The notes under the pieces are model-generated. The model was not told the origin of the DNA and did not search any database. It worked only from the letters and a program-made list of their open reading frames with translations. Below, one piece after another: positions 5,438-36,953 of a stretch of DNA of 64,000 nt. Source of the DNA: Planctomycetota bacterium. Its GTDB lineage: Bacteria > Planctomycetota > Planctomycetia > Gemmatales > Gemmataceae. A program made the position numbers and the translations under genes. Every line of letters starts with the position of its first letter. Positions within the stretch are counted from its first letter, which is position 1. The stretch is taken from positions 21,702-85,701 of the forward strand of contig JACPPF010000045.1 in the NCBI GenBank assembly GCA_016191165.1. Reading direction: 5' to 3'.

Positions 5438-5742
5438 GAAGGATCCAGTGAAGTCGGTTGAACGTTCCGACCCAGTCCATTCTACGGTCTATCGCCCGCC
5501 TGGAGAAAGTATTTTGGCTAGGCCCTTGGTGTTCATCGCGCAGTCGGTATAACAATCCCACAGTTTTCGGAAAAAAAACAGCCCGGGAAGTAAATGAACC
5601 TCACTCCCCGCGAAACTGTCTTTTCGTAAGATAACCGGGCCAACTAGCCCGGGCGGAAAGCGGCGGAAGTCAACGAAGGCGCCGGCGAAAGTCAACTTGC
5701 AAGGCTTTCGCGGACCTTCTATACTCACCATTTCCACGCTTC

Positions 5743-5814
5743 GCTAGCGTAGCTCAATGGTAGAGCTCCGGTTTTGTAAACCGGGGGTTGTGGGTTCAAG
5801 TCCCTCCGCTAGCT
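5743..5814 (+). tRNA. tRNA-Thr(TGT)
   Basis: Cloverleaf: gctagcg...cgctagc acceptor, anticodon loop tt-TGT-aa, T-arm ttcaagt. Confidence 0.95.
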
Positions 5815-5860
5815 TCGCGAGTCATCGCGAATGCCTAGCCGCAAGCGGCTTGAAAAACCA

Positions 5861-5944
5861 GGGCAGGTGGCCGAGCGGCCAATGGCATCAGACTGTAAAT
5901 CTGACGGACTACGTCCTACGGGGGTTCAAATCCCTCCCTGCCCA
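5861..5944 (+). tRNA. tRNA-Tyr(GTA)
   Basis: gggcagg...cctgccc acceptor, cagact-GTA-aatctg, long variable arm. Confidence 0.95.
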
Positions 5945-5947
5945 ATT

Positions 5948-6003
5948 GCCGCTTGCGGCTTAGCGTTCGCAGGACGCCGCGCGAGCGCGAAGCCGCAAGC
6001 GGC
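5948..6003. repeat. Palindromic REP-like element gccgcttgcggcttagcg...gcgaagccgcaagcggc
   Basis: Inverted repeat between tRNA-Tyr and tRNA-Gly; partial copies at 5837-5850 and 12025-12045. Confidence 0.8.
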
Positions 6004-6013
6004 AGATCGGGTC

Positions 6014-6084
6014 GCGGGTGTAGCTCAATGGTAGAGCCCCTGCCTTCCAAGCAGGCCACGTGGGTTCGATTCCCATCACCCGCT
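6014..6084 (+). tRNA. tRNA-Gly(TCC)
   Basis: gcgggtg...cacccgc acceptor, ct-TCC-aa anticodon loop. Confidence 0.95.
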
Positions 6085-6093
6085 TGTGAAAGA

Positions 6094-6174
6094 ATTGCAG
6101 ATTGCAAGAATTGCAGATTTCAAATTGCGAAACCTGAGATTTCAAGCCGAAATCTGCAATTTGCATCCTGCAAT
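6094..6174. repeat. Miniature inverted-repeat element A (attgcagattgcaagaattgcagattt ... inverted)
   Basis: Left ATTGCAGATTGCAAGAATTGCAGATTTC vs reverse complement of right ATTGCAGGATGCAAATTGCAGATTTC. Confidence 0.8.
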
Positions 6175-6183
6175 GAGCGATCT

Positions 6184-6256
<73 letters not shown>

Positions 6257-6323
6257 TCTTGATGTGTGTTTTCACCTGGGTTCTGGCCCGCCGTGGCCGG
6301 AGTTTTTGTATTTCGGAGGAACG

Positions 6324-7550
6324 ATGGCTAAGGAACTTTTTCAGCGGACCAAACCCCACGTCAACGTCGGTACGATCGGCCATATCGACCACGGCAAAAC
6401 CACGTTGACCGCGGCGATCCTTGTCCGGCAGGCGCACAAGAACAAGCTCCAGAAGGTCAAGAGCTATTCCGAAATCGCCAAGGGCGGTACCGTCCGCGAT
6501 GAAAACAAGACGGTCACCATCGCCGTCGCCCACGTTGAGTATGAAACGCCGAACCGGCATTATGCCCACATCGACTGCCCCGGGCACGCCGACTATATCA
6601 AGAACATGATCACCGGCGCCGCCCAGATGGATGGCGCCATCCTCGTGGTCGCCGCCAACGACGGTCCCATGCCGCAAACCCGCGAACATATCCTCCTGGC
6701 TCGCCAGGTCGGCGTGCCGCGCATCGTCGTCTTCATGAACAAGATCGACACCGTCGATGATCCCGAACTCCTCGACCTCGTCGAACTCGAACTGCGCGAG
6801 CTCCTGACCAAGTATGAGTTCCCGGGCGACGAAATCCCGATCGTGCGAGGCTCCTCCAAGCCCGCCCTCGATACTCAGGGCAAAGACGATGACGCCGGCA
6901 AGTGCATCGACGACCTGATGGTCGCCCTCGACACCTACATCCCCGAACCCAAGCGCGAAGAGGACAAGCCGTTCCTCATGAGCGTCGAAGATGTGTTCTC
7001 CATCGAAGGTCGCGGCACCGTGGCCACGGGCCGAATCGAGCGCGGCATCTGCAAGATCGGCGACGAAGTCGAAATCATCGGGCTCATGAAGGCGCCCAAG
7101 AAGACCACCATCACGGGCGTCGAAATGTTCAACAAGACGCTCGACAAGGGCATCGCTGGCGATAACGTCGGCGTCCTTGTCCGCGGCCTAAAGCGTGAGG
7201 AAATCGAACGCGGCCAGGTGCTCGCGAAGCCCGGTTCGATCACGCCGCACACGAAATTCGAGGCCAACGTTTACGTCCTGTCCAAGGAAGAAGGCGGACG
7301 CCACACCCCGTTCTTCGTCAACTACAGGCCGCAGTTTTATTTCCGCACAACGGACGTCACCGGTTCGATCACCAGCCTCACCGGGTCCGATGGCAACAAG
7401 GCGGAAATGTGCATGCCTGGCGACAACATCAAGGTGACCGTGGAATTGCTTCCCGATAGCCCCATCGCCATGGACGAGGGGCTCCGGTTCGCCATCCGTG
7501 AAGGTGGCCGCACCGTCGGTTCCGGCGTCGTGACCAAGATCATCGCGTAG
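6324..7550 (+). CDS. tuf: Elongation factor Tu
   Basis: [32 protein letters not shown]...; follows Thr-Tyr-Gly-Thr tRNAs as in E. coli tufB locus. Confidence 0.98.
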
Positions 7551-7564
7551 TTCTTACCGCCAGG

Positions 7565-7593
7565 CCCAGGGATGAGCGCAGCGAATCCCTGGG
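7565..7593. repeat. Hairpin cccagggat-gagcgcagcga-atccctggg downstream of tuf
   Basis: Perfect 9-bp stem, 11-nt loop; partner copy inverted at about 7612-7640, another at 60589-60611. Confidence 0.8.
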
Positions 7594-7655
7594 ATATTCA
7601 ATCATGCCTGATCTAGGCGGTTCGCTGCGCTCACCCCTGGACTTTGGGTATTACC

Positions 7656-7808
7656 ATGCGAGAATACGTTTGGCTGGAATGCACGGTCTGCAGCGCGAAA
7701 AACTACCGCACGCAGAAAGAAACCCGCGGCGCCGATCGGCTGGAACTCAAGAAATTCTGCCGCAAGGAACGCAAGGTTACCCCGCACAAGGAATCCAGAA
7801 AGAAATGA
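7656..7808 (+). CDS. rpmG: 50S ribosomal protein L33 (50 aa; missing from supplied ORF track)
   Basis: MREYVWLECTVCSAKNYRTQKETRGADRLELKKFCRKERKVTPHKESRKK. Confidence 0.93.
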   Translation: MREYVWLECTVCSAKNYRTQKETRGADRLELKKFCRKERKVTPHKESRKK

Positions 7809-7891
7809 TTGCGGATTGCGGATTGTGGATTGCAAGCGAGAACTTGGGGCGGATACGTCCGATTCAATCTGCAATTTGAAATCGGCAATTG
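7808..7891. repeat. Miniature inverted-repeat element B (gattgcggattgcggattgtggattg ... caatctgcaatttgaaatcggcaatt)
   Basis: Short-period tandem repeat with degenerate inverted counterpart, abutting rpmG stop codon. Confidence 0.7.
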
Positions 7892-7896
7892 AATGA

Positions 7897-7969
7897 AGGG
7901 GCGTAGCTCAATTGGCAGAGCAGCCGTCTCCAAAGCGGCAGGTTGAGCGTTCGACTCGCTCCGCCCCTG
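7897..7969 (+). tRNA. tRNA-Trp(CCA)
   Basis: aggggcg...cgcccct acceptor, gccgtct-CCA-aagcggc; upstream of secE as is common. Confidence 0.95.
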
Positions 7970-8028
7970 CTACCCGGGCCGAGGCGCGAACACGAGAGCG
8001 CAGGCAACTCAAGTATAAAGGATAGACC

Positions 8029-9054
8029 ATGTCGGTCACGGAAAAACCACTAACGGCGCCGGTACACCAGGACCCCCACCAACAGCTTTTGGTCGGTAGC
8101 GTCCTTGGCGCCGTCGTGGTGCTGGCGGCGCTGGGGATTGTCTTCGCCGGCTTGCCGTGGCTTTGGTGGGAAGCCTGGAACACCCTGTTCGCCAACAACG
8201 ACGACATGAGGAGAAACACCTTTTTGTCGCGTGCTCTGTTGATTTTGGTGGACCTTCTCGCCATGGGTGGGTTGGCCTACGGCGCCCATGGCGCGTTGCA
8301 AAGGATCAGCCAACCGGGCCTGCGGGCAGGAATCTTTTTTCAGGCGGTCGTCTTTTGCGTTGCCGGCGGGGTGAGTTTTTGGATCGGGGCCGCGATGGAG
8401 GGCAATGAGCAATCTGCCACCGTCGGATGGTCGGTGATGGCCGTCGTCGCCGGCGCCGCCATCGCCGGGGCCGCCTACCTCTATCTCAAGTCTCCCGCCT
8501 GGTTGAATTTCCTTGAAACCCTTGAACAGCAGGGCTGGTTTCACGGCATCTCCTACAAGGGCAACCAGGGCGTGCGCGTTCGCCGCGGCAGCATTATCGG
8601 TCTGCTCGCGGTCGGATTGTGCGGCATCATCACGCTGAGCATGAATCGCTTCTTCGGCGTCGAGCGGCCCGATCTTCCGTCCAACGACTGGTTTTTGGAC
8701 ATTCCATTCACGGAGCAAACCAAGTTCATTCCGCTCTTTTATTCGGTCCACCTGATCATCCCGTTGGTGCTGGGCGTGGCCTTGATGTGGGTGGCCTGGC
8801 GCGTCGTCAATGTGCCGGCCTTCGCGGATTTTTTGATTGCGACCGAAGCCGAGATGAATAAGGTATCCTGGACGAACCGCCGCCGGCTGTACCAGGATTC
8901 GATCGTGGTGTTGGTGACCACGTTCTTGATGACGGCCTTTTTGTTCGCGGTCGATATCGTCTGGATCCGCGTGCTCAGCGCTCCGGGCATTCAGGTTCTG
9001 GTGATCGACTTGAAAGAAGCCGAAAAGCAGCAACAAAAAACCGCGGAATGGTAG
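8029..9054 (+). CDS. secE: Preprotein translocase subunit SecE with long multi-TM N-terminal extension
   Basis: C-terminal FLIATEAEMNKVSWTNRRRLYQDSIVVLVTTFLMTAFLFAVDIVW; located before nusG. Confidence 0.88.
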   Translation: MSVTEKPLTAPVHQDPHQQLLVGSVLGAVVVLAALGIVFAGLPWLWWEAWNTLFANNDDMRRNTFLSRALLILVDLLAMGGLAYGAHGALQRISQPGLRAGIFFQAVVFCVAGGVSFWIGAAMEGNEQSATVGWSVMAVVAGAAIAGAAYLYLKSPAWLNFLETLEQQGWFHGISYKGNQGVRVRRGSIIGLLAVGLCGIITLSMNRFFGVERPDLPSNDWFLDIPFTEQTKFIPLFYSVHLIIPLVLGVALMWVAWRVVNVPAFADFLIATEAEMNKVSWTNRRRLYQDSIVVLVTTFLMTAFLFAVDIVWIRVLSAPGIQVLVIDLKEAEKQQQKTAEW

Positions 9055-9087
9055 GTCGTCCCCCATTCGCCATCTGGATTGGTTCCC

Positions 9088-9732
9088 ATGACAACGGACT
9101 CCACCACGCCTGAGTTGACCGCGCCGAGCGCCTCTTCCGCGCCGCCAGCGGACGTCCCGCCCGATGCGCCCGAGGAACAACCGGCCCCGAACAACCTGCA
9201 ATGGTATGTCGTCAAAGTTCAGTCGAACCGAGAGGAATCGATCAAGGAAGCCATCGAGAAGAAGGTCAAGATCGAGGGCCTGCAAGCAGGCTTCGGTCAG
9301 ATCGTCATTCCCACCGAAAAAGTGAGCGAGATGCGTAAAGGGAAACGCTATATTCGCGAACGCAAGCTGCTCCCCGGCTACCTGATGGTCCAGGTCGAAT
9401 TCAACGAGGAAATGCTCTACCTTTTCCGCGAAACATCCGGGGTTGGCGATTTCGTCGGCGCGGGGCTAAACAAGAAGCCGTTGCCGATGGGTGAAAATGA
9501 CATAAAAAAATGGATTGGCCAAAAGGACGGCGGCATCAGCCCGACGACCGAAACGAAGGCTTCTCCCTACAGCGAAGGCGACCGCGTCAAGGTCAAGGAC
9601 GGCATGTTTTCGGGTATGGAGGGCGCGGTCAAGACCATCCTCGAAGCCAAGGGCGCCGTCGTCGTGGAGCTAACCATCTTCGGCCGGCCCGTGCCCGTCG
9701 AATTGGAATACTGGCAAGTGGATTTCGCATGA
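9088..9732 (+). CDS. nusG: Transcription termination/antitermination factor NusG
   Basis: WYVVKVQSNREESIKEAIEKK...; KOW SEGDRVKVKDGMFSGMEGAV. Confidence 0.95.
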   Translation: MTTDSTTPELTAPSASSAPPADVPPDAPEEQPAPNNLQWYVVKVQSNREESIKEAIEKKVKIEGLQAGFGQIVIPTEKVSEMRKGKRYIRERKLLPGYLMVQVEFNEEMLYLFRETSGVGDFVGAGLNKKPLPMGENDIKKWIGQKDGGISPTTETKASPYSEGDRVKVKDGMFSGMEGAVKTILEAKGAVVVELTIFGRPVPVELEYWQVDFA

Positions 9733-9734
9733 TC

Positions 9735-9829
9735 TGGTGAGTGATGCGTGGTGCGTGGTGAGTGATGAGCGGCATCTAATTGGCCGACTCGGCACTCGCG
9801 GCGCACCACTTGCCACTCGCCACTTACCA
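9735..9829. repeat. Miniature inverted-repeat element C (ggtgagtgatgcgtggtgcgtggtgagtgatgag ... cactcgcggcgcaccacttgccactcgccacttacc)
   Basis: Short-period G/T tandem repeat and inverted A/C counterpart between nusG and rplK. Confidence 0.8.
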
Positions 9830-9839
9830 AGGCAACCTC

Positions 9840-10304
9840 ATGGCAAAACATGTTACCGCTCAGGTGAAACTTCAATGCCCCGGTGGGCAAGCGACGCCGG
9901 CCCCGCCGGTAGGGCCCGCGCTGGGTCAGCACGGCGTCAATATCGGTCAGTTCGTGTCGCAGTTCAACGACAAGACGAAGGATCAGCGCGGCATGATGAT
10001 CCCCGTGGTCATCAGCGTTTTCAGCGACCGCACGTTCACCTTTGAAATCAAGAGCCCGCCCGCCGCGGTCCTCATCAAGCAGGCCGCCGGGATCCCCATC
10101 GAAAAAAAGAAGGGCGGCGACGTTTTGCCCGCCGAAGAAAAAGAAAAAAAGACCGGGAAATACAAGGGTTTCAAGGTCACGAAAACCCAGGTGCGTGAAA
10201 TTGCCAAGCGAAAACTGGTTGACCTCAACGCCCGGGATGAAGACCACGCCATGCGCGTCATCGAAGGCACCGCCCGCAGCATGGGCATCACCGTGGAAAG
10301 TTAG
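9840..10304 (+). CDS. rplK: 50S ribosomal protein L11
   Basis: [31 protein letters not shown]. Confidence 0.96.
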
Positions 10305-10491
10305 CCAGCAAGCGAAAGCGACCGTTTCCTGACGCAGCGCCGTCCGGAAAAAATACGGCCTCTCGCGCGGAGTCAAGAAAAAAAAGTTCCTCAGCACCGA
10401 AAAAAAGCGGACACCGCAACCTGTTGGATGTATAACATCCAGACGGGTCGGGTCGCTTTTTCGATGCGTTTTTGTTTTTACGAGTTCATCC

Positions 10492-11430
10492 ATGGCCAAG
10501 AAACAAACGGGCGATGCCGCCGACGCTAAACCCGCGGACGACGCCGGTCAAGCAAAACAAGCCAATCCCGAGGTAAAAGAGCCGAAGAAACCCAGGGCGG
10601 CAAAGGCCCCCAAGCCTGAGGTTGCGCCGGACGGCGCGCCCGCGCCGGCCGATGCCGCCAAGCCCGCGGCGCCAAAGCCAGCCTCCGCAGCTGGCGCGGA
10701 CGGTACGAAAAAAAAGAAAAAAGGAGGCATTTCGCCTGCCCGAGGCAAAAAGCTGCGCAACCAAATAAAGAATACTCTCCAGCGCATTGAAAAAGAGGGG
10801 GCTGTTCCGCTGCCGCGCGCGGTGACCTTGCTCAAGCAGTCCAAGCGAGTCAAGTTTGATGAAACGGTCGAGATCCACATGTCGCTCGGCGTGGATACGA
10901 CTCAAAGCGATCAACTCGTGCGTGGCACGGTGCCCTTGCCGCACGGCGTGGGCAAAAAAGTTCGCGTTGTCGTGTTTTGCCAGGGGGATAACGTGGCCAA
11001 GGCCATGGAGGCCGGCGCCGACTTCGCGGGGTCTGATGATTTGATTGAGAAAATCCAAAAAGGCGGCTGGCTCGATTTCGATGTGGCGCTGGCAACGCAA
11101 GACCTCATGGGCAAAGTCAGCCGCCTTGGCAAAGTGCTCGGGCCCCGCGGTCTGATGCCGACGCCCAAGGCCGGGACGGTCATCACCGGCGATGTGGCCG
11201 GGGCCGTGCGCGATTTCAAGGCGGGCAAGGTGGAATTCCGCACGGACAAGGGGGGCAACGTCCACGCTGGCGTCGGTAAGCTTAGCTTCGAGGAAGACAA
11301 GATTGCCGCCAACGTCACTGCTTTCGTCGATGCCATCCGCGCCGCCAAGCCGACCGGAATCAAGGGCAACTACGTAAAATCGATCACGCTTTCCTCCACG
11401 ATGGGGCCAGGTATCGCCCTGGCGATGTAG
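10492..11430 (+). CDS. rplA: 50S ribosomal protein L1 with about 75-aa Lys/Ala/Pro-rich N-terminal extension
   Basis: [20 protein letters not shown]1 signature. Confidence 0.95.
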
Positions 11431-11484
11431 TCATGCCGATTGGTGGCCTGGCAGCTGAACCCTCGACTCAACCGGATTGTCCAC

Positions 11485-12024
11485 ATGAGTAAAGTCATCA
11501 AGCAAATGCAAATGAACGCCTTGACGAGCGACTTCAAGGACGTTCGCGAGATGGTGCTCCTTAATATCGTCGGGCTTGACGCGATTGGTGAGAACCAGGT
11601 TCGTCTGGGTCTGCGTAAAAAGGGCATTCGCCTGCAGATGGTGAAGAACAGCCTGGCGCGGCGCGTGTTTGGCGATCTGGGACTGCAAATCCAGACGGGC
11701 TGGGAAGGCTCGACCACGGTGGCATGGGGCGCCGGCAGCGTCGCGGAGTTGGCCAAGGAGATCGAAACGGTCGTCAAGAAGTACGACAAGAAAATGAAGG
11801 TCAAGACCGCGGTCGCGGACGGCCTGGAGGTGGCGTTCGACATCGCCCTCAAGATGCCCACGCGCCAGGAATCGCTGAGCCGGGTTGCCATGCTGGCGCT
11901 CGCGCCGGCTCGCCGCATCGCCGCCCAGATTGTCGGGCCCGCCTCGCAGGTGTGTGGCCAGATCAAGGGAATCAAGGACTCGAAGAAGGAAGAAGAGGCC
12001 CCGGCAGAGACGCCGCCCGCCTGA
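11485..12024 (+). CDS. rplJ: 50S ribosomal protein L10
   Basis: MSKVIKQMQMNALTSDFKDVREMVLLNIVGL...; between rplA and rplL. Confidence 0.92.
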   Translation: MSKVIKQMQMNALTSDFKDVREMVLLNIVGLDAIGENQVRLGLRKKGIRLQMVKNSLARRVFGDLGLQIQTGWEGSTTVAWGAGSVAELAKEIETVVKKYDKKMKVKTAVADGLEVAFDIALKMPTRQESLSRVAMLALAPARRIAAQIVGPASQVCGQIKGIKDSKKEEEAPAETPPA

Positions 12025-12138
12025 CGCCGCTTGCGGCTTGGCGTTTGCGAATTGGAAGAAAGCTATTACGCATGCTGCTCAGCTTCAAGCAGCACCTGGT
12101 GATACAAGAACGAACAAACGAACGAAAGGAAAGTTGCA

Positions 12139-12549
12139 ATGTCCGACCGTGCATGGGGCGATGATATCAAAGACATCGGCGACAAGATCGCCGCTCTTAC
12201 GGTTTCCAAGGCCGTGGAACTGGGCGATTACCTCGAAGAAGTCCACAAGATCAAGCCGGCCGCGGGTGGTGGTGGCGGCGGCCCGATGATTCAGCAGCAA
12301 GCGCCGGCGCCCGAAAAGGCTGCCGAGCCGACCGAGTTCCGCGTCGTCCTCGAGGGCTTCGACCCGGCCAAGAAGATCAACGTCATCAAGGTCTGTCGCG
12401 AGATCACCGGTCTTGGCCTCAAGGAAGCCAAGGACCTGGTCGAGGGCGCGCCCAAGGCCGTCAAGGAAGGCCTGAGCAAGGAGGATGCCGCCAAGATCGA
12501 AAAGCAGTTGACCGACGGCGGCGCCAAGGCGTCCGTCAAGCCGATGTAA
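12139..12549 (+). CDS. rplL: 50S ribosomal protein L7/L12
   Basis: [41 protein letters not shown]. Confidence 0.96.
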
Positions 12550-12562
12550 GGGACCGCCAATT

Positions 12563-12600
12563 CGTTTAGCGCCCGCGCGACGCCAGGCGAGCGCTAAACG
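12563..12600. repeat. Palindrome cgtttagcgcccgcgcgacgccaggcgagcgctaaacg
   Basis: Same family as 30266-30301 and 48852-48887. Confidence 0.8.
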
Positions 12601-12959
12601 ATCAACGGCATGAATCAACCAAACCGGAATGAAGTCGAGGCTGCGGCAGCGAGGCGGATGTTGGGCACAGGAAGTCCCGCCACTCGTCTGCGACCATCAC
12701 GTTGTCGTGCGGTGGGAACAGCGTGAAGCGCATTCATCAATTCCAAGAGACCAGAAGCTCCTCCCAATCGAGGTGTGCTTCCAGGGTCTTTTTTCATTCC
12801 AGGTTCGTACGGCGGACCCGGTTGTCGCGCGTGGCAACCCACCCTGATTTTCGCGCCATCTGCCCCGGATGCATCTACCCTGAGCCATACTCTCGTCGCG
12901 CGCGTCTGGCCTGTTCCAGGCGCGCGGGCGTGTTCCCTTTTCTGGGAGGAGCCTGAGTC

Positions 12960-16739
<3,780 letters not shown>

Positions 16740-16812
16740 TTTCATTGCAGAGTTGAGAGTTCAGAGTGCAGAATGTGGGGAAAAATCACGCACCCATTCT
16801 GGAGACTCTGCG

Positions 16813-17187
16813 ATGAAGAACGACAACCTGAAATTGCGAACGAAAGAATTCGCGAAACGAGTCATCAAGCTATGCCGGCAATTGCCCAGGACGGAGGAAG
16901 GGGCTTTGATTCGTCGGCAGGTTTTTCGCTCTGGTACCTCGGTGGGCGCCAATTATCGCGCGGCATGCCGTGCTCGGTCGAAAGCCGATTTCGTCTCCAA
17001 GATGGGTATCGTTCTGGAGGAAGCCGACGAAACACTCTATTGGCTGGAGATTATCGTCGAAACCGAAATTATCAAACAAAAACTGCTTGGACCGCTAATG
17101 AAGGAAAACAACGAGCTGGTTTCCATCTTCGTCGCGAGCCTGCGGACAGCAAAAGAACAGGATTCGCGAAAAGATGACAATGTGTGA
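16813..17187 (+). CDS. Four helix bundle protein (S23 / 23S rRNA intervening-sequence protein family)
   Basis: RQVFRSGTSVGANYRAACRARSKADFVSKMGIVLEEADETLYWLEI family signature. Confidence 0.88.
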   Translation: MKNDNLKLRTKEFAKRVIKLCRQLPRTEEGALIRRQVFRSGTSVGANYRAACRARSKADFVSKMGIVLEEADETLYWLEIIVETEIIKQKLLGPLMKENNELVSIFVASLRTAKEQDSRKDDNV

Positions 17188-17189
17188 CC

Positions 17190-17354
17190 ATGGAAACGAA
17201 ACTAACTATTCGGAATTGCCCCACGGCATTCCGTTTTCAGTGCCCAAGGGATTGGGAAGAGCTTGAGCGAACCATGTCGCCCAAGTTTCGTCACTGTGCG
17301 GCCTGTAATCGGGACGTTCATTTTTGCGGATTTGAGATGGGCCGCACCATATGA
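17190..17354 (+). CDS. Small Cys-rich protein (54 aa, not in ORF track)
   Basis: METKLTIRNCPTAFRFQCPRDWEELERTMSPKFRHCAACNRDVHFCGFEMGRTI; starts 2 nt after the four-helix-bundle stop; four or more Cys in CxnC pattern. Confidence 0.6.
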   Translation: METKLTIRNCPTAFRFQCPRDWEELERTMSPKFRHCAACNRDVHFCGFEMGRTI

Positions 17355-17416
17355 CACGGTTTGGAAAACTGCACTCTTAACTCTGAACTCTGCATTGTTT
17401 TTGAAGGAGGCTAACC

Positions 17417-20400
17417 ATGAGCGCCGGTGAAGCCAATTATGATCGCATCAATGACTATGGCTCGGTGAGAATCAGCCTCGCCAGCCCGCACGACATCCGT
17501 TCCTGGTCGTTCGGCGAAGTCAAAAAGCCGGAAACGATCAACTACCGCACCTACCGGCCCGAAAAAGACGGCCTGTTCTGCGAGCGCATCTTCGGCCCGG
17601 AAAAGGACTGGGAGTGCTCCTGCGGCAAATACCGCGGCATGAAGTACAAGGGCATGATCTGCGACCGCTGCGGCGTCAAGGTGACGCACTCGCGCGTGCG
17701 CCGCAAGCGCATGGGGCACATCGAACTGGCGGCGCCCGTTGTCCACATCTGGTTCTTCAAGGCCATGCCCAGCCGGCTGGGGACGCTGCTGGAGATGAAG
17801 ACCACCAGCCTGGAAAAGATCATCTACTTCCAGGACTACGTCGTCGTCGATCCGGGCGACACCCCCCTGAAGGAAAAACAGCTGCTCACCGAGGACGAGT
17901 TCCGCCGCAGCCGCGATCAGTACGGCGAAGCTTTCAAGGCCGCCATGGGCGCCGAAGCGATGAAGATGCTGCTGGAACGGCTCAACCTCGTCGATCTCTC
18001 GCGCGACCTGCGCGAAAAACTGGCCGCCGAAACCGCCAAGGACAAATCGTCCAAGCAAAAGCTGCGCGACTATGTCAAGCGCTTGAAGGTGGTCGAATCG
18101 CTGCGCGACAGCGGGCTGGGGGGGCCTCCCAACAAACCCGAATGGATGGTCCTCGAGTGCATCCCCGTCATCCCGCCCGACCTGCGCCCACTCGTGCTGC
18201 TCGATTCGGGCAACTTCGCGACCAGCGATCTGAATGACCTTTACCGCCGCATCATCAATCGCAACAATCGGCTCAAAAAGCTGGTCGATCTCAACGCGCC
18301 CGAGGTCATCATTCGCAACGAAAAGCGCATGCTTCAGCAGTCCGTGGACGCCCTGTTTGACAACAACCGCTGCAAGCGGCCTGTCCTGGGTTCGTCGAAT
18401 CGGCCGTTGAAGTCGCTGACCGACATGATCAAGGGCAAACAAGGACGATTCCGCGAGAACCTTCTGGGCAAGCGCGTCGATTACTCGGCCCGCTCGGTGA
18501 TCGTAGTCGGGCCCGAACTCAAGTTGCACCAGACCGGCCTGCCCAAGAAGATCGCGCTCGAATTGTTCCAGCCTTTCATCATTCGCCGTCTGAAGGAGCT
18601 CGGCCACGCCGATACCATCAAGTCGGCCAAGAAAATGCTGGAGCGCAAGGCCGACGAGGTGTGGGACATCCTGGAAGAGGTGATCAAGAACCATCCGGTG
18701 CTGCTCAATCGCGCGCCGACCCTGCATCGCATGGGCATTCAAGCGTTTGAGCCGGTGCTGATCGAGGGCAACGCCATTCGCATTCATCCGCTGGTTTGCA
18801 AGGGCTTCAACGCCGACTTTGACGGCGATCAGATGGCGGTCCACCTGCCGCTCTCGATCGAGGCCCAGGTCGAGGCGACGGTGTTGATGATGGCGACCAA
18901 CAACATCTTCAGCCCGTCCAACGGCCATCCAATCATCACGCCCAGCCAGGACATCGTCATGGGCTGTTATTACCTGACCGCCGATCCGCTGGCGATGTTC
19001 ATGTCCCCCGGCGGCGTCATCGACGAGCGCGTCAAGGACTATCGCAAGAACCTGCCCGCCAACCTCAAGGGGGAGAACATGAAGTTCTCCAGCCCGGCCG
19101 AGGTCTTCCTGGCGTTCGCCCTCAAGAAGCTTGGCATTCACGCGCGCATCAAGGTGCGTTTGCCGATCGAAAAGAAGGTCGTCAGCGAGGTTGCCGTCGA
19201 TAAGGACAAAACCAGGGTCGAGGAGACCGCGCGCGATCCCAAGAACCTGCTGGTGTCAACAACGGTCGGCCGCGTGATTTTCAACGACATCCTGAAACCG
19301 CTCATGCCCTTCTACGATCTCGCTCTTTCGGGCAAACACCTGAGCCGCATCATCGCGGATTGTTATCAGTTGCTCGGCCGGCGCGAGACGATCGAGCTTT
19401 TGGATCGTATGAAGGAAACCGGCTTCCGCGAATCGACCCGCAGCGGGCTGTCGTTTTCGACCGACGACCTCAAGACGCCGCTCAGCAAGGAACAGTTCAT
19501 CAAGGATACCGAGAAGGAAGTCGACAAGGTGCAGAAGCAATACTCCAAGGGCTTCATCACGGGCCCGGAGCGCTATAACCGCATCATCGACCTCTGGACC
19601 GACGCGCGCGACAACATCACCAAACAAATGATGCAAGAACTCAAGCACGATGTCCGCGGCGGCATCCCTTACCTGAACCCGATTTTCCTGATGGCCCACT
19701 CCGGCGCCCGCGGCGGCGTCGAACAGATTCGCCAGCTCGCCGGCATGCGCGGTCTGATGGCCAAGCCCTCAGGCCAAATCATCGAGACGCCGATCAAGGC
19801 CAACTTCCGTGAAGGCCTCAGCGTGCTCGAATACTTCAGCTCCACCCACGGCGCCCGCAAGGGATTGGCCGATACCGCCCTCAAGACGGCGGACTCCGGC
19901 TACCTCACGCGCAAGCTCGCGGACGTGGCGCAGAATGTCGTCGTCACCATGAACGACTGTGGCTCCACGCAGGGCATCACCAAGCGCGCCATCTACAAGG
20001 GCGAGGAAATCGAGCGCTCCTTGAGCGAAACCATTCGGGGCCGCGTCAGTCGCCACGCCATCACCACCCGCGTCGATGACGACGAGGTCACCGTCGTCGG
20101 CGAAAACGAAATGATCAACTGGGAACAGGCGCGCCACATCGAAAAGCTCGGCATCGACAACGTCGTCGTCCGTAGCCCCATGACCTGCGAAGCGACCCTG
20201 GGCATCTGCCGGCTTTGCTACGGCATGGACCTGGCGACCGGCACGCTCGTCGAGGAAGGCATGGCCGTCGGCATCATTGCCGCGCAGTCAATCGGCGAAC
20301 CCGGCACGCAGTTGACGATGCGCACCTTCCACATCGGCGGCGTCGGCAACCGCGAGATCGAAGAAAAGGAACGCAAATCCAAGCGTGGCGGCGTCGTCAA

Positions 20401-21811
20401 GCTGATCCGCGTCACCGCCGTCGAGGACGACAAGGGCCAAACCATTGCCTTGACCCGCAACGGCCAGCTGCAAATCCACGGCGCCAAGGGCATCATGGAA
20501 GAGTTTTCCATCCCCAACGGCGCCTACCTGTTCGTCAAGGAAGGCCAAACCATCCATGCCGGAACTCGGTTGTGCGAATGGGACCCCCACGTCACGCCAA
20601 TTTTGGCCGAGCGCGGCGGCCGCATCCGCTTCGAGGACATCGAAGAAGGCGAAACGCTGCGCAAGGAACGCGACGCCTCGGGCGCCGAGCGCTGGGTCAT
20701 CATGGAACATAAAGGCGACTTGCACCCGCAAATCATCATCGAGGACGAAAAAGGCCAGGGCCTGGAGGTCCACTACATTCCAGAAAAAGCCCACCTGGAG
20801 GTTCGCGCCGGCAATGCCGTCACCGCCGGCAGCGTCCTGGCCAAGACGCCCCGCGAAGTCGCCGGCACGCAAGACATCACCGGCGGTCTGCCGCGCGTCA
20901 CCGAAATCTTCGAGGCGCGCAAGCCGCGCGATCCCGCCGTCATGGCCGAGATTTCCGGGCGTGTTCGGCTCGGCGAAACCAAGAAGGGTAAACGCGAGAT
21001 CATAGTCGAATCGATGGACGACAGCGGCAAGCCGATCGGGCACGAAATCCCGCACGCCGTCCCGCGTGGTAAGCCGCTGCGTGTCCACACGAACGATTAC
21101 GTCAAGGCGGGCGACCCGCTCGTCGATGGCCCGCTCGTCCCGCACGATATCCTGCGCATCAGCGGTCTGGAGGCGGTGCAAAACTATTTGGTGCGCGAGG
21201 TGCAAAGCGTCTACCGCAGCCAGCGCGTCGATATCGACGACAAGCACATCGAGATCACCATCTCGCAGATGCTGCGCAAGGTCAAGGTCGAGACGATGGG
21301 CGACACCGGCCTGCTGCCCGGGTCGGTCATCGACCGGTTCGCGTTCCGCGAGGTCAACAATCGGCTCAAGGATTGCGTGAAGATCAAGAATCCGGGCGAC
21401 TCGAAGTTCGAGCCGGGCAAGATCATTTCCAAGGACGCCTACGAAGAAATTCGTAACGCCCTGGAGGCGGACGACAAGACGCCCCCCACCCACGAGAAGG
21501 CCGTGCCGGCGACGTGCAGCACCCAGCTTCTGGGCATCACGAAGGCGGCGGTGCAGTCCGATAGCTTCATCTCGGCGGCCAGCTTCCAGGAAACGACCAA
21601 GGTGCTGACCGAGGCGGCGCTCTCGGGCAAGGTCGATTACCTCGTGGGCCTGAAGGAGAACGTCATCCTCGGGCATCTGATTCCGGCCGGCACCGGTTTT
21701 CAGACGCATCAGGAGGCGGAGGTGCGGATTTATCCCAAGGCCCTCGAAAGCCTCGCCGCCGCTCACGCCAGCGAGGCCGCCAAGGCGCCGGAACTGTCAA
21801 CCAAGGAATAG
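17417..21811 (+). CDS. rpoC: DNA-directed RNA polymerase subunit beta'
   Basis: 1464 aa; [39 protein letters not shown]. Confidence 0.98.
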
Positions 21812-21841
21812 GCGCAGTACCATTTGTCGAAGAGCCTTTTG

Positions 21842-21912
21842 ACCAGCCCCCAGCGCAAGCTGGGGGGGTGGGAGGCTGCCCTAATCCCCCGCGCTTGCGC
21901 TTGAGGCTGGTA
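21842..21912. repeat. Inverted repeat accagcccccagcgcaag ... cttgcgcttgaggctggt
   Basis: Arms are near-reverse-complements, between rpoC and rpsL. Confidence 0.7.
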
Positions 21913-22082
21913 GTTCTTTGCCTGGCGATGCCGACGAATGCTTTTGCGAAGCGTCGCCCACCGTTCGGGAAGGCCAATATTTCCCGTTTCCCTATTGACC
22001 CTTGGTGAAAACGGGAATAACGTATCCGTTTGCCGAATTTGAATGGCCCGCTGCGAAGGCATCGGGCGGTACGGAGTCAGGA

Positions 22083-22457
22083 ATGCCGACGATCAACCAG
22101 CTGGTGAAAAAGGCCCGCATCCCGCAAACCAGGAAGCCGCGTCACCCGGCCATGACGGGTTGCCCGCAAAGGCGCGGCGTCTGCCTGCAAGTCAAGATCA
22201 TGACGCCCAAGAAGCCGAACTCCGCGCTTCGCAAGGTGGCGCGCGTCCGACTGTCGAATGGAATCGAGGTCACCGCGTACATCCCGGGCGAAGGGCATAA
22301 TTTGCAGGAGCACTCGATCGTGCTCGTGCGTGGCGGCCGTGTGCGCGATCTGCCCGGCGTGCGTTATCACATCATCCGCGGCGTCCTCGATTCGCAGGGC
22401 GTTGCCGATCGGAAGCAAGCGCGGTCCAAATACGGCGCCAAGAAGGAGGGCGGTTGA
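22083..22457 (+). CDS. rpsL: 30S ribosomal protein S12
   Basis: [57 protein letters not shown]. Confidence 0.97.
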
Positions 22458-22591
22458 GCGCGGGCGGTTCCTCTCCGTCGCTGTTGGGTTGGAAGTGGGT
22501 TCGCTCTTCTTCGCCGAAGGCGAACAGTCCGATATCCTTCACCTTCGAGGACGAAAGCTGCATGTTAAGTCTCCTGCTTTGCCTGAAGTTC

Positions 22592-22795
22592 ATGTGTACC
22601 GGTTGTGGCAGCGCCATCGACACGGCTCTTCAATGCGAGAGCCCCGAGACGCAGGATCAACAAGGAGCGACTACCAAAATTCACTGCCCTTTCTGCAAGG
22701 CGAAGAATCAGGTGGTTTTTACCACGGACGGGGCCATTCACGCCGTGACCCGGGCGCGAACCTATGAACGGATTCCAGAGCCGAGTGTCAATTAG
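22592..22795 (+). CDS. Small zinc-ribbon-like protein (start uncertain)
   Basis: MCTGCGSAIDTALQC...KIHCPFCKAKNQ: two CxxC pairs, between rpsL and rpsG. Confidence 0.4.
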   Translation: MCTGCGSAIDTALQCESPETQDQQGATTKIHCPFCKAKNQVVFTTDGAIHAVTRARTYERIPEPSVN

Positions 22796-22900
22796 CAATC
22801 GCGTGGGACGAGCGCGGCGATCCCCACCAGCGATGTTTTCCGCCAAACCGGTGGGTTTTGCCGCGCTCGACCCACCCTACCAAAGATCAGAAAAAAAGAC

Positions 22901-23371
22901 ATGGGACGCAAGACCGCTAGTGCCACCACGCTGAAGCCCGATCCGGTCTACGGGTCGAAGTTGGCTTCCAAGTTCATCAACTGCCTGATGTGGCAAGGCA
23001 AAAAGGCGACCGCGCAGCGCATCTTCTACGGCGCGATGGCCCAGATCAAGAAGCGCCTGCCGGACGTCAGCCCGATTGACGTCTTCACCCAGGCAGTCGA
23101 AAATGTCAAGCCGCCGATCGAAGTCCGCTCCAAACGCGTCGGCGGGGCCACCTACCAGGTTCCCATGCAGGTGAATCGCACGCGCCAGCAGAGCCTGTCG
23201 ATTCGCTGGATCCTCGCCGCCTCGCGCGGCAAGAAGGGCAGGCCGATGTTCCTGCGCCTTGCCGACGAGCTCCTCGCCGCCTACCGCCGCGAAGGCGAAG
23301 CCATGACCAAACGCGAGAACACCATCAAGATGGCCGACTCCAACAAGGCGTTTGCTCACTTTGCCTGGTAG
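22901..23371 (+). CDS. rpsG: 30S ribosomal protein S7
   Basis: [31 protein letters not shown]..., [13 protein letters not shown]. Confidence 0.97.
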
Positions 23372-23380
23372 CGAACCAAG

Positions 23381-23490
23381 TCAAAAGTAAAAAGGAAAAA
23401 GGAAAAGGGATGCGGGCATTGGCCCTGCCTTTTTCCTTTTTCTTTTGGTATCCTACTTTTGCCTTTTTACGTTTGCCTTTTTACTTTCGA
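23381..23490. repeat. Miniature inverted-repeat element D (tcaaaagtaaaaaggaaaaaggaaaagg ... cctttttacgtttgcctttttactttcga)
   Basis: Reverse complement of right: TCGAAAGTAAAAAGGCAAACGTAAAAAGGCAAAAG matches left periodic repeat; between rpsG and fusA. Confidence 0.75.
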
Positions 23491-23496
23491 GTTCTC

Positions 23497-25614
23497 ATGG
23501 CTACCTTCGACCTAACCAAGATCCGCAACCTCGGCATCATCGCCCATATCGATGCCGGCAAGACCACGACCACGGATCATGTGCTCTTCTATTCCGGCGC
23601 CAAGCACAAGCTCGGCACCGTTGACTCCGGCACGACCGAAACCGATTATGACCCTGAAGAGCAAGAGCGCGGCATCACGATCTACAGCGCCTGCATCCCG
23701 TTCAAATGGCGCGACTGCACGATCAACCTGATCGATACGCCCGGACACGTCGATTTCACCGCCGAGGTCGAGCGCAGCTTGCGTGTGCTCGACGGCGCGG
23801 TCGTGGTATTCGACGCCCAAAAAGGCGTCGAGGCCCAGTCCGAGACGGTCTGGCGGCAGGCGGACAAGTACAGCGTGCCGCGCCTCGCCTTCATCAACAA
23901 GATGGACGTCGTCGGCGCCAATTTCGAGAATGCCGTTCACGAAATCAAGGACCGGCTCGAAGGGACGCCCGCCCCGCTCATCATCCCGTTCGGCAGCGGG
24001 TCGTCCAAGGATAGCCAGACTCCCTTTGCCGGCATTGTCGATCTTCTGGAGGGCAAGGCGTACTTCTTCGATCCGCAGACCGAGGGAAAAAAGTTTCATT
24101 CGGCCCCGATCCCCGAAGAAATGCACGACCGGGTCCAGCACTGGCGCGAATACCTCTTCGAGGTGCTAACGCAGTTCGACGACAAGGACCGCATCACCAC
24201 GCTCTACCTCGAAGGGAAAGAAATCCCGCTCGACATCTTGCGACAAGTCATTCGCGAACAAACCCTGGCCAGGCAGATCCAGCCGGTTCTTTGCGGCTCG
24301 GGCCGCGAGCACGTGGGCATTCAGCCGCTCATGGATGCGGTATGTCATTATCTGCCCTGCCCGCTCGATCGCCCGCCGGTCAGGGGCGTGCATCCCAAGA
24401 AGAAGGACAAGGAGGAGCAGCGCAAACCCGATCCGAAGGAACCCCTCGCCGCGCTCGTGTTCAAGATCGTGGCCGATTCGCATGGTGATTTGTATTTCCT
24501 GCGCATCTACTCCGGGACGCTCAAGGCCAACAGCCGGGTGCTCAATCCCGACTGCCGGCTCTTCAATCCCCCGAAGGAAGTGAAGGAGTTCGCGAGCAAG
24601 ATTTACCACATTCATGCCGATCCAAAAAACCGCGAGGACATGCCGCTCGCCCATGCGGGCGACATCGTCGGCATCATCGGCCCCAAGGATTCCATCACGG
24701 GCGACACGCTGTGCGACCCGCAGCACCCGATCGTGCTCGAGCAGATCCAGTTTGCCGAGGCCGTCGTCAGCATGTCGATTGAACCCGAATCCTCCGGCGA
24801 CAAGGACAAGCTGACCGAGAAGCTCGACTGGCTCAAGCGCGAGGACCCCACATTCACCTGGCGCATCGACGCGGACACCGGTCAAATGTTGATGAGCGGC
24901 ATGGGCATCCTGCATCTGGAAGTCAAACGGCATCGACTCGAACGCGATTTCCGCCTGAAAGTGCGCGTGTCAAAGCCGCGCGTCAGCTACCGCGAGACCC
25001 TACGAAAAGCGGTGAAGATTCAGGGTGAGTGCGTCAAGCAGGCGGGGACGACGGGGTTGTTCGCCAAGGTGACGGTCGAATTCGAGCCGATTGGCGTCGA
25101 GAAGGGCATCGAGGTGATCAACGCGATCCCGCCCGAAGCCCTGCCGGGGGAATTCTCGCTGGCCGCCGAGCAGGGCATCCGGTTTGCGTTACAATCGGGG
25201 GAGCTGGGCTATCCGGTGATCGGCGTCAAGGCGACGATGCGCGCCGCTCAATTGCACGAGGTCGATTCCAACGACATCGCCTTCCAGGCCGCGGGCGCCG
25301 ATGCCGTCAACCGCGCCTTGAAGGGGAACATGACGCTGCTCGAACCGGTTATGAATACCGAGGTCATGATCCCCGAGGATTACCTGGGCCCCGTCACCGC
25401 CGACCTGAACGCGCGCCGTGCGGAGATTCGCGAGGTTCTGACGCGGGGGAAGCTGCGCGTGATCGAGGCGCTCGTGCCGCTCGCCAAGATGTTCGATTAC
25501 TCCGACAAGGTCCGCAGCTTGACGCAAGGCCGCGCCAGCTGGACCATGGCCCCCAGCGCCTATGCCCCCGTCGATGCGGAAACTCGTCGCCAGATGGAAA
25601 GCGGCGAATGGTGA
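23497..25614 (+). CDS. fusA: Elongation factor G
   Basis: IAHIDAGKTTTTDHVLFYSG, ERGITIYSA, LIDTPGHVDFTAEVERSLRVLDGAV; follows rpsL-rpsG. Confidence 0.93.
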   Translation: MATFDLTKIRNLGIIAHIDAGKTTTTDHVLFYSGAKHKLGTVDSGTTETDYDPEEQERGITIYSACIPFKWRDCTINLIDTPGHVDFTAEVERSLRVLDGAVVVFDAQKGVEAQSETVWRQADKYSVPRLAFINKMDVVGANFENAVHEIKDRLEGTPAPLIIPFGSGSSKDSQTPFAGIVDLLEGKAYFFDPQTEGKKFHSAPIPEEMHDRVQHWREYLFEVLTQFDDKDRITTLYLEGKEIPLDILRQVIREQTLARQIQPVLCGSGREHVGIQPLMDAVCHYLPCPLDRPPVRGVHPKKKDKEEQRKPDPKEPLAALVFKIVADSHGDLYFLRIYSGTLKANSRVLNPDCRLFNPPKEVKEFASKIYHIHADPKNREDMPLAHAGDIVGIIGPKDSITGDTLCDPQHPIVLEQIQFAEAVVSMSIEPESSGDKDKLTEKLDWLKREDPTFTWRIDADTGQMLMSGMGILHLEVKRHRLERDFRLKVRVSKPRVSYRETLRKAVKIQGECVKQAGTTGLFAKVTVEFEPIGVEKGIEVINAIPPEALPGEFSLAAEQGIRFALQSGELGYPVIGVKATMRAAQLHEVDSNDIAFQAAGADAVNRALKGNMTLLEPVMNTEVMIPEDYLGPVTADLNARRAEIREVLTRGKLRVIEALVPLAKMFDYSDKVRSLTQGRASWTMAPSAYAPVDAETRRQMESGEW

Positions 25615-34776: not shown

Positions 34777-36953
34777 TTGTTATCTCCTTTCGCAATTTTC
34801 TCGACGATTTGCTGAATCCGCTGTTGACGTTCACCCAGGTTGCGCAGTTCGCGGATGATCTGGGGTTCTTTCGCCTGTTCGCCTGGGAACTGACGGGCGT
34901 AGGTCTTGGTACGATCGTTGACGCGTTTCTGTAACGCGCGAACCATCTTGAGCTCTTGCAGGAGCTCAAGCAACTTCTTGTCGCCTTGCTTGCCCTGCTT
35001 GCCTGACTTGCTCTTGCCGCTCTTGGACTCCTGGTTTTTTTCTTGCTCCTTCTTGAGGGCGTCGATCATGTCCTTGAGGGATTCGATGATGTCTTTCTCG
35101 ATCCCTTGAGTGACGCCGTGAACGTCGGTAAGCTCGAGTCGCTTCTGGACATGGATCATGTCCTGGCGGATTTGCTGGAACACCTCGGGGAAGGCGACCG
35201 CGGTGCCTTCGGATTCCAGGATGTCGATGCACTTGTTGACTTCCTGGACGATTTCCTTTTCCTGGTCGGCGAGCTTGAGGGCGTCTTTCTTGTCGCCGGA
35301 GTCAGCCTTCTTGCCGGGCCGTTTCAGGACGCGAGCGTCCACGTCAATAGTGCCAGCGAGAACTTGCTGCTGCATGACGAGCATCTTTTCGCAGCGAGCT
35401 TGGAGAGCTGCGAGGACGCGTTCGATTTCCTCGTCGCGAAGTTGCTGAAGGAGTTTTTCGAGCTTCTTCTTGGCTGCATCCAGGTCCTTGGCTGCTTGAG
35501 CTTGCTTGTTGGCCGCGTTCTTGGGATCGCCGGCCTTGATGTCCTTGGCAGCCTGGTTTTGTTCGTATCCAGCTTCTTGAACTTTCTTTTTGCTTTGAGC
35601 GATGTTTTGATCTTCCTTATCGCCGCCGCCTGGGGGGGGAGGCTGATCGCCGCCCTTTTGAGCGGAGGGGGGCCCTTGCTGGGCTTCCTTGGGATCGCCG
35701 CCGCCGGCTTTCGCCTGGCCCTTGCCGGCCTTGGAGTCGCCCGCTTTGGCCTGGCCCTTGCCGGCCTTGGGTTCACCGCCCGCCTTGGGGTCGCCGCCAG
35801 CTTTCGCCTGGCCGCCCGCCTTGGGATCGCCGCCCTTGTCGGCCTTGGAACCGGGCTTCTTGCTATCGGGATTGCCCTTGTCGCCCGCCTTGGCATTGGC
35901 GTCGGGGAGGCCAGGCTTTTTGTCTTCGTTGCCACCGGCCTTCTTGTCTTCGCTGCCCTTGGCGGAGCCTGGCTCGCCGGCTTTCTTGTCGCCGCCCTTG
36001 GCCGCGCCTTCTTGGCCCTTGCCCTTGCCGCCCTTGCTATCCTTGGCGGCGCCTTCTTGCCCCTTGGCGCCGGCTTTGCCCTTGGCGCCGGCCTTGGCGC
36101 CTTCTTGCCCCTTGGCGCCGGTCTTGTTGCCTGACTTGGGTTCGCCTGATTTTTCGCCCTGCCCGGCCTTGGGGTCGGCGGATTTGGATTCGCCCTTGGC
36201 GCCCTTGGATTCCTTGCCGCCGTCTTTCGCTTCGCCCTTGGCGCCTTCTTTACCTTTTTGGCCGGCGTTCTTGGCTTCGCCCTTGGCGCCTTCACCCTTG
36301 CCGCCGTCTTTGTTCTTGCCCTTCTGATTCGCCGCCTCAAGGCCTTTGCCGTCCTTGTCGAGTAGTTTGCCGATATCCTTTTCAATTTCGCCGGTCTTAT
36401 TGGCGGCAGCTTCCTGTTCCTTGCGGAGCTGATCCGGATCGGTCTTGCCGAGGCGATTGCGGGCTTCGAGATCCTTTTGCCGCTGGTAGGCGGCGTCGAG
36501 GTCCTTGATAATCTTTTCGAGCGTCTTGCGATTGTTCGACAGATCGCCGCGGTTATCGCGCATGGCCTCGAGAATCGTTTGCAACCGGCGCGTCAGGTCA
36601 TCGCTCTGGTTGGTGAGTTTTTCGAGATCGTCGGTGTTTTGCAGCCGCGCGGTCTTCATCATTTCGATCATCTTGACGAATTCCTGGTTGACCGCCAGTT
36701 CGCGACAAAGGTCGAGGACCTTGCCCAGCGCCTCGGCGCGGCGTTTTTCTTCCGGCGTGCCCTTGGAGAGCCTGTTCTTGAGCTTCAAGAGCGAAGTCTG
36801 GAAATCGCCGAACTGGCGCAATAGCTGCTGCTCGCCGTTGACGATGTCGTCTTTTTGTTGCGAGGATTTGGCCTGCTCCTGGGCGTAGGTGCCAATCGCG
36901 AAAAGCGACAGAACCGCGAGCCCGATCGAAGCGAGGATGAGACGAGCTTTCAT
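34773..36953 (-). CDS. Secreted coiled-coil protein with long Gly/Lys/Ala low-complexity segment
   Basis: Signal peptide; helical ends; central GAKGEAKDGGKESKGAKGESKSADPKAGQGEKSG repeats; overlaps downstream start by ATGA-like junction. Confidence 0.7.
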   Translation of the reverse strand: MKARLILASIGLAVLSLFAIGTYAQEQAKSSQQKDDIVNGEQQLLRQFGDFQTSLLKLKNRLSKGTPEEKRRAEALGKVLDLCRELAVNQEFVKMIEMMKTARLQNTDDLEKLTNQSDDLTRRLQTILEAMRDNRGDLSNNRKTLEKIIKDLDAAYQRQKDLEARNRLGKTDPDQLRKEQEAAANKTGEIEKDIGKLLDKDGKGLEAANQKGKNKDGGKGEGAKGEAKNAGQKGKEGAKGEAKDGGKESKGAKGESKSADPKAGQGEKSGEPKSGNKTGAKGQEGAKAGAKGKAGAKGQEGAAKDSKGGKGKGQEGAAKGGDKKAGEPGSAKGSEDKKAGGNEDKKPGLPDANAKAGDKGNPDSKKPGSKADKGGDPKAGGQAKAGGDPKAGGEPKAGKGQAKAGDSKAGKGQAKAGGGDPKEAQQGPPSAQKGGDQPPPPGGGDKEDQNIAQSKKKVQEAGYEQNQAAKDIKAGDPKNAANKQAQAAKDLDAAKKKLEKLLQQLRDEEIERVLAALQARCEKMLVMQQQVLAGTIDVDARVLKRPGKKADSGDKKDALKLADQEKEIVQEVNKCIDILESEGTAVAFPEVFQQIRQDMIHVQKRLELTDVHGVTQGIEKDIIESLKDMIDALKKEQEKNQESKSGKSKSGKQGKQGDKKLLELLQELKMVRALQKRVNDRTKTYARQFPGEQAKEPQIIRELRNLGERQQRIQQIVEKIAKGDNK

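Follow-up and report, generated by a model that had tools for sequence, protein, structure and literature searches.

A putative minimal mobile element between rpoB and rpoC: IVP genes flanked by inverted heptamer arrays in a planctomycete and across bacteria

The rpoB and rpoC genes of the planctomycete studied here are 677 nt apart, and the space between them holds a small gene bounded by inverted short repeats. What is this insert, and how did it come to lie within an essential operon? On the evidence below, it is a stand-alone form of the intervening-sequence kind, for which a defining anatomy and evidence of insertion can be given and for which we infer a moving mechanism. We consider it probable that the insert belongs to a family of minimal mobile elements, about 480 bp in size, that is spread across bacteria and would move by means of an IVP protein and a heptamer hairpin in the manner proposed here.

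Anatomy of the rpoB–rpoC insert

The insert was found in a 64,000-nucleotide stretch of DNA that was analysed as a whole (the window). Its features, with those of the host genes, are as follows.

12960..16739, plus strand: rpoB, upstream host gene (gene call)
16743..16771, plus strand: left heptamer arm, CATTGCAGAGTTGAGAGTTCAGAGTGCAG (inverted-repeat search and TRF; 90% complementary to the right arm)
16813..17187, plus strand: IVP/S23-type four-helix-bundle gene, 124 aa (PF05635, TIGR02436, AlphaFold, Foldseek)
17190..17354, plus strand: second small ORF within the arms, 54 aa, Cys-rich, a possible passenger (read from the sequence)
17369..17397, plus strand: right heptamer arm, the inverted copy (inverted-repeat search and TRF)
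17417..21811, plus strand: rpoC, downstream host gene (gene call)

The element occupies positions 16743-17397 (655 bp), with the onset of its left arm 3 nt past the rpoB stop codon, and consists of terminal inverted repeats flanking an S23p-type ORF. The inverted short-period ends described in the first-pass annotation are borne out: the arms are 29 nt each, 90% complementary and 597 nt apart, both have a period of 7 by TRF, and they form the longest inverted pair of the region. An arm score of at least 34 was reached by one of 500 random windows from the same genome, and that one was the rpoB–rpoC element itself; among 300 small ORFs of the genome, a score of 34 was met only by the two IVP genes of the window. 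An Rfam scan of window positions 5500-24500 returned tRNAs only, and the element thus lies outside any rRNA gene there. The 54-aa ORF has no Pfam match and was assigned to no family.

The 124-aa product matches PF05635 (E = 9e-18, 64.9 bits, cut-off 33.8) and TIGR02436 (E = 2e-26, 92.5 bits, cut-off 24), and its AlphaFold model is a confident four-helix bundle (pLDDT 95), so that the S23/IVP assignment made at first reading holds. In Foldseek, 2RLD and 2GSC rank at the top (query TM 0.89 and 0.86, respectively), followed by the Avd structure 4DWL, and the matches also include ribonucleoprotein chains of diversity-generating retroelements (DGRs). The protein carries no known catalytic signature. 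It is under purifying selection, with dN/dS values of 0.06, 0.07 and 0.17 for three unsaturated orthologous pairs (two further near-identical pairs were uninformative). In the protein tree, phyla are interleaved, and horizontal transfer of IVP genes is no more than suggested, because most forks are weakly supported. No IVP match was found among 50,697 phage records.

Heptamer arms around IVP genes

Eight PF05635 genes occur in the genome (7.2 Mb, 183 contigs), and inverted heptamer arms flank every one of them, each element with a unit of its own: AGTTGTC, AGGGGTT, AGTGCTG, GAATGAA, AAAAGGA, CAGAGTT, CAATTNN and TCGAAATCCGAAA. A 23S rRNA gene, also sought, was not found in the assembly. Besides a second IVP element, the window contains four heptamer hairpins that carry no gene, and the three that were folded exceed shuffled sequences in RNA stability.

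47389..47889, minus strand: second IVP element of the window (L008), unit TCGAAATCCGAAA, gene domain at 47487-47777 (repeat and profile searches)
6090..6185, plus strand: gene-less heptamer hairpin between two tRNA genes (RNA fold z = -3.8)
7806..7890, plus strand: gene-less heptamer hairpin (GATTGCG), preceding a tRNA gene (TRF, Rfam context)
9735..9829, plus strand: gene-less heptamer hairpin (TGGTGAG / CCACTTG) in a ribosomal-protein cluster (RNA fold z = -6.2)
23377..23484, plus strand: gene-less heptamer hairpin (AAAAGGA) in a ribosomal-protein/elongation-factor cluster, before the elongation-factor gene (RNA fold z = -4.4)

The last of these shares its unit, AAAAGGA, with the IVP copy L005. 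In 385 kb of sequence from this genome there are five strict inverted arrays at a lag of 7, compared with 0-2 at other lags; two are IVP elements and three are gene-less with the units of two resident IVP copies, although these numbers are small. Repeats of another sort also occur in the window: at 35702-36311 lies a set of long, GC-rich tandem repeats, 18-54 in period, that is probably coding, with repeated amino acids.

The PF05635 family is present in 22 of 41 genomes (this one and 40 relatives). At 64 IVP loci of this set, the upstream flank was scored against the reverse complement of the downstream flank, which gave a median of 42 compared with 18 for flanks paired across elements, and 44 loci lay above the 99% level of the null. 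The two arms of an element match one another and not the arms of other elements. A period of 7 or 14 was found in 47/64 upstream and 52/64 downstream flanks, compared with 1.6% of random 200-mers. Beyond these relatives, a profile scan of genome contigs yielded 80 named IVP loci from many phyla (Planctomycetota, Pseudomonadota, Bacillota, Bacteroidota, Acidobacteriota, Gemmatimonadota, Chloroflexota, Kiritimatiellota, Verrucomicrobiota, Fibrobacterota and several candidate-phyla lineages), 57 of which beat every shuffled control. Repeat ends are far commoner beside these genes than elsewhere: of 123 loci whose flanks are long enough, 66% reach a score of 30 or more around the gene, compared with 0% in matched windows 1 kb upstream, with strong arms missing by this score at about 30% of loci. 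In cyanobacterial plasmids, heptamer arms were present at every IVP gene inspected and weak at some. None of the IVP loci fetched was found in an rRNA context.

The anatomy of the family is thus one IVP/S23 gene between inverted arrays of, mostly, four to six heptanucleotide units (four being the minimum of the detector), with a median span of 482 bp, and this architecture is bacteria-wide and specific to the IVP gene family. Left arms are skewed in base composition (G 0.33, C 0.14), and right arms are the mirror image. Most elements have a period of 7 (or 14); a minority, candidate-phyla and Bacteroidota members among them, have one of 8. Arms of period 8 were seen in L124, L134, L142, L143, L149 and L171, mostly TTAGNNNN-like in candidate-phyla lineages.

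Filled and vacant sites

The rpoB–rpoC junction had been described as normally tight, which is not the case in this clade: its length ranges from 82 to 748 bp in four relatives of the same genus and from 27 to 848 bp across the family. All four same-genus relatives lack the IVP gene and have other inserts there. Two junctions are 170 bp long, one contains an 82-bp hairpin and one, of 748 bp, holds another ORF; both 170-bp junctions and the 82-bp junction contain inverted hairpins like those that flank the Y1 (RAYT-type) transposase genes of the genus. The flanks of the element are about 85-91% identical to those of the IVP-free relatives. In the family, this junction is an insertion-prone spot inside an essential operon. 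Across the junctions L009-L038, species-specific inserts were seen (RAYT-type hairpins and unrelated ORFs).

The flanks of all eight elements of the genome were sought within the genus. Five elements (L002, L005, L006, L007 and L008) were found in no relative examined, L001 and L003 are shared with one relative, and the L004 site has an IVP gene in two relatives as well. At the L007 site, two relatives have instead a gene-less heptamer hairpin with another unit, TAGTCCG, which in this genus is also the unit of IVP elements at other sites.

Closer comparisons come from cyanobacterial plasmids. In one family with 96-99% identity, the site filled in L262 is vacant in L267-L270, the vacant sequence being AAAAAGTAATTAACAAATAA and the filled one AAAAAGTAAT[423 bp]GTAATTAACAAATAA, which amounts to a 5-bp duplication of GTAAT. 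In a second family, from Nostoc, L281 has an IVP element where L288 and L289 are uninterrupted (3-bp overlap, ATG). L288 carries a different IVP element at another junction, with the unit AGGAGTC, and the same unit makes up gene-less hairpins of about 145-195 bp in L289/L290; gene-less hairpins, too, occur as presence/absence inserts. The IVP elements are therefore present or absent at orthologous or near-identical sites, and since filled and vacant pairs at near-identity show insertion, the proposal of a self-contained mobile unit is well supported. Several vacant sites have differences beyond simple insertion. In plasmid pC052_E of Nostoc sp. C052 (L271), a decayed IVP remnant was observed at a site where Trichormus has the element and others have none, indicating loss by internal deletion.

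The target duplication that the first-pass annotation had suggested looking for was seen at one site only, the clean GTAAT plasmid site; short flanking direct repeats show no general excess across 105 elements, where target duplications are not visible as a rule. Neither of the two outcomes named beforehand as counting against mobility, a gene carried by all close relatives at this junction or repeats no commoner beside such genes than elsewhere, was found.

Among elements with two neighbours of assignable orientation, 42 are co-directional with both and 2 run against both. Such a bias is consistent with either a step at the RNA level or selection against insertions in antisense, and the data do not tell the two apart.

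A proposed mechanism and its rivals

How might so small an element move? The IVP protein is probably the dedicated factor of these elements, acting on the folded heptamer hairpin. When transcribed or single-stranded, an element would pair its arms into a long hairpin, and the IVP protein, which has a pentameric relative of solved structure (2GSC), could then bind the arms with their 7-nt period. The oligomer would read this period and not a fixed word, and units could thus vary between elements while the arms of each still match. Bound IVP might mark or protect the hairpin for re-insertion by host replication or repair or by another enzyme. Gene-less hairpins could be moved in trans by the IVP of an element with the same unit, as has been proposed for REPINs and RAYTs. 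Insertion at transcribed junctions might be tolerated since the hairpin reads in the direction of the host genes and RNase III could process it, as it does the 23S rRNA intervening sequences, which are excised without ligation. The mechanism of movement is putative.

Other accounts of these data deserve consideration. That the arms arose by chance, or that simple repeats were misassembled, has next to no probability: the arms are indeed short and of low complexity, but the controls, at 0-0.7% compared with 66-70%, refute this account, and elements occur in complete plasmids and many independent genomes. It is also quite improbable that the elements are now immobile, with arrays that slippage during replication produced around a gene gained by horizontal transfer and that form RNA-processing or stability hairpins, the protein serving in host RNA handling. 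Heptamer repeats are frequent in some bacteria and variable in copy number (PMC4679880, PMC4990558), the arms fold as RNA, and the purifying selection on the protein would fit a host function as well. Slippage sits poorly, however, with precise presence and absence at near-identical sites; independent slippage would not be expected to give matching inverted arms on either side, nor is one architecture across very different phyla and genomic sites what this account leads one to expect.

We regard as rather unlikely a further possibility, in which another enzyme (a RAYT/Y1 transposase or a reverse transcriptase) mobilizes the elements in trans and IVP is an accessory, as Avd is in DGRs, or a passenger. 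The likeness of the IVP fold to Avd and DGR ribonucleoprotein chains speaks for it, an RNA intermediate would give strong co-orientation, and the genome has both reverse transcriptases and Y1 transposases. Against it, two relatives that are >90% complete (G012 and G013) have an IVP element and no match to PF00078 or PF01797, and G003 and G015 have several IVP genes without PF00078. As G012 and G013 have neither enzyme, the elements do not everywhere depend on a reverse transcriptase or Y1 transposase, and the case for either as an obligate partner is weakened, although these genomes are incomplete and mobility may lie in the past. RAYT genes, moreover, are flanked by hairpins of their own, of a non-heptamer type. 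The Y1 transposases L301 and L302 were considered as heptamer-flanked and rejected, as their flanks hold a short fixed motif and not an array. The rpoB–rpoC element has no Y1 (HUH) transposase, IVP being its sole family match; the neighbours of its IVP gene are rpoB and rpoC, and PF00078 was not found on contig C38.

If the elements are moved by their own IVP proteins, a broader reading suggests itself, which we advance tentatively and hold with less than even confidence: IVPs would be the only mobility factors encoded by the elements of a class that spans bacteria, uses no transposase, recombinase, nuclease or reverse transcriptase of known type and would recognize a 7-nt-periodic hairpin and not a fixed sequence, with 23S rRNA intervening sequences (IVSs), the IVPs of cas operons and some gene-less hairpins as copies. 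Were this true, an element that moves without a recognized mobility enzyme would mark a real gap in the understanding of how DNA moves. With heptamer arms as its definition, the moving unit can be located and tested in any genome. This anatomy also links a very common protein family without an assigned role to a function, and some intergenic heptamer hairpins may derive from such elements.

The closest relatives of the rpoB–rpoC element are the 23S rRNA IVSs, which have been suspected of mobility since about 1990, with transposition proposed without a defined unit (PMC4990558). The IVS of Coxiella burnetii, about 430 nt long, has an S23p ORF, a 28-bp terminal stem and tandem GACAGAT heptamers upstream of the ORF, and it is cut out by RNase III (PMC4990558). 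Both kinds share a protein family, terminal inverted repeats, heptamers and a suspected selfish or mobile nature, but the IVS lies in rRNA and the copy described here between protein genes, and heptamers had been reported for one IVS, as a curiosity (PMC4990558). The known 23S IVSs, that of Coxiella included, look like copies in another site, and the family may account for long-puzzling inserts in some bacterial rRNA genes. In the literature covered, with most subscription journals and all of bioRxiv outside its scope, no paper links the IVP family generally to heptamer arms; nor had this family been connected with units that are specific to each element, with matched arms, with gene-less partners or with vacant sites.

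The nearest working analogy is that of REPINs, intergenic hairpins moved by RAYTs (PMC3116915). There, too, dispersed intergenic hairpins share their sequence with the flanks of the protein's gene, and in this genus REPIN/RAYT-type hairpins and IVP elements occupy the same gene junctions. RAYT, however, is an HUH/Y1 transposase with a catalytic Tyr, which IVP lacks, and REPs are conserved palindromes, whereas IVP arms are heptamer arrays with variable units. Avd of DGRs (PDB 4DWL, 8UB7) has the same four-helix-bundle fold; unlike in DGRs, the IVP gene has neither a reverse transcriptase nor template and variable repeats beside it, and reverse transcriptases are missing from some element-bearing genomes. 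Galileo, a eukaryotic Foldback-type transposon with a P-superfamily transposase, likewise has inverted ends with internal tandem repeats (PMC3573991) and differs in its transposase, size and hosts. Heptamers are also known without a protein gene, as in the P6b region of the Nostoc trnL intron, where two complementary runs, of unknown origin, form a stem (PMC4476775), and in TAACTGA repeats of other bacteria (PMC4679880); these share the 7-nt period and the occurrence of more than one unit class, and the trnL intron heptamers may, we infer, be related to IVP elements.

Earlier reports place IVP genes in cas loci (PMC3936711) and, in candidate-phyla bacteria, within 16S/23S inserts (PMC11270868), and the elements described here are a possible explanation for both. 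The IVP gene between cas6 and cas4 on a plasmid of Anabaena sp. 90 has heptamer arms. Two kinds of element occur at this cas6–cas4 junction: the IVP element of pANA02 (L261) has its counterpart in Dolichospermum (L285) in a 270-bp hairpin of another type, TAGGTTGGGTTGACG.
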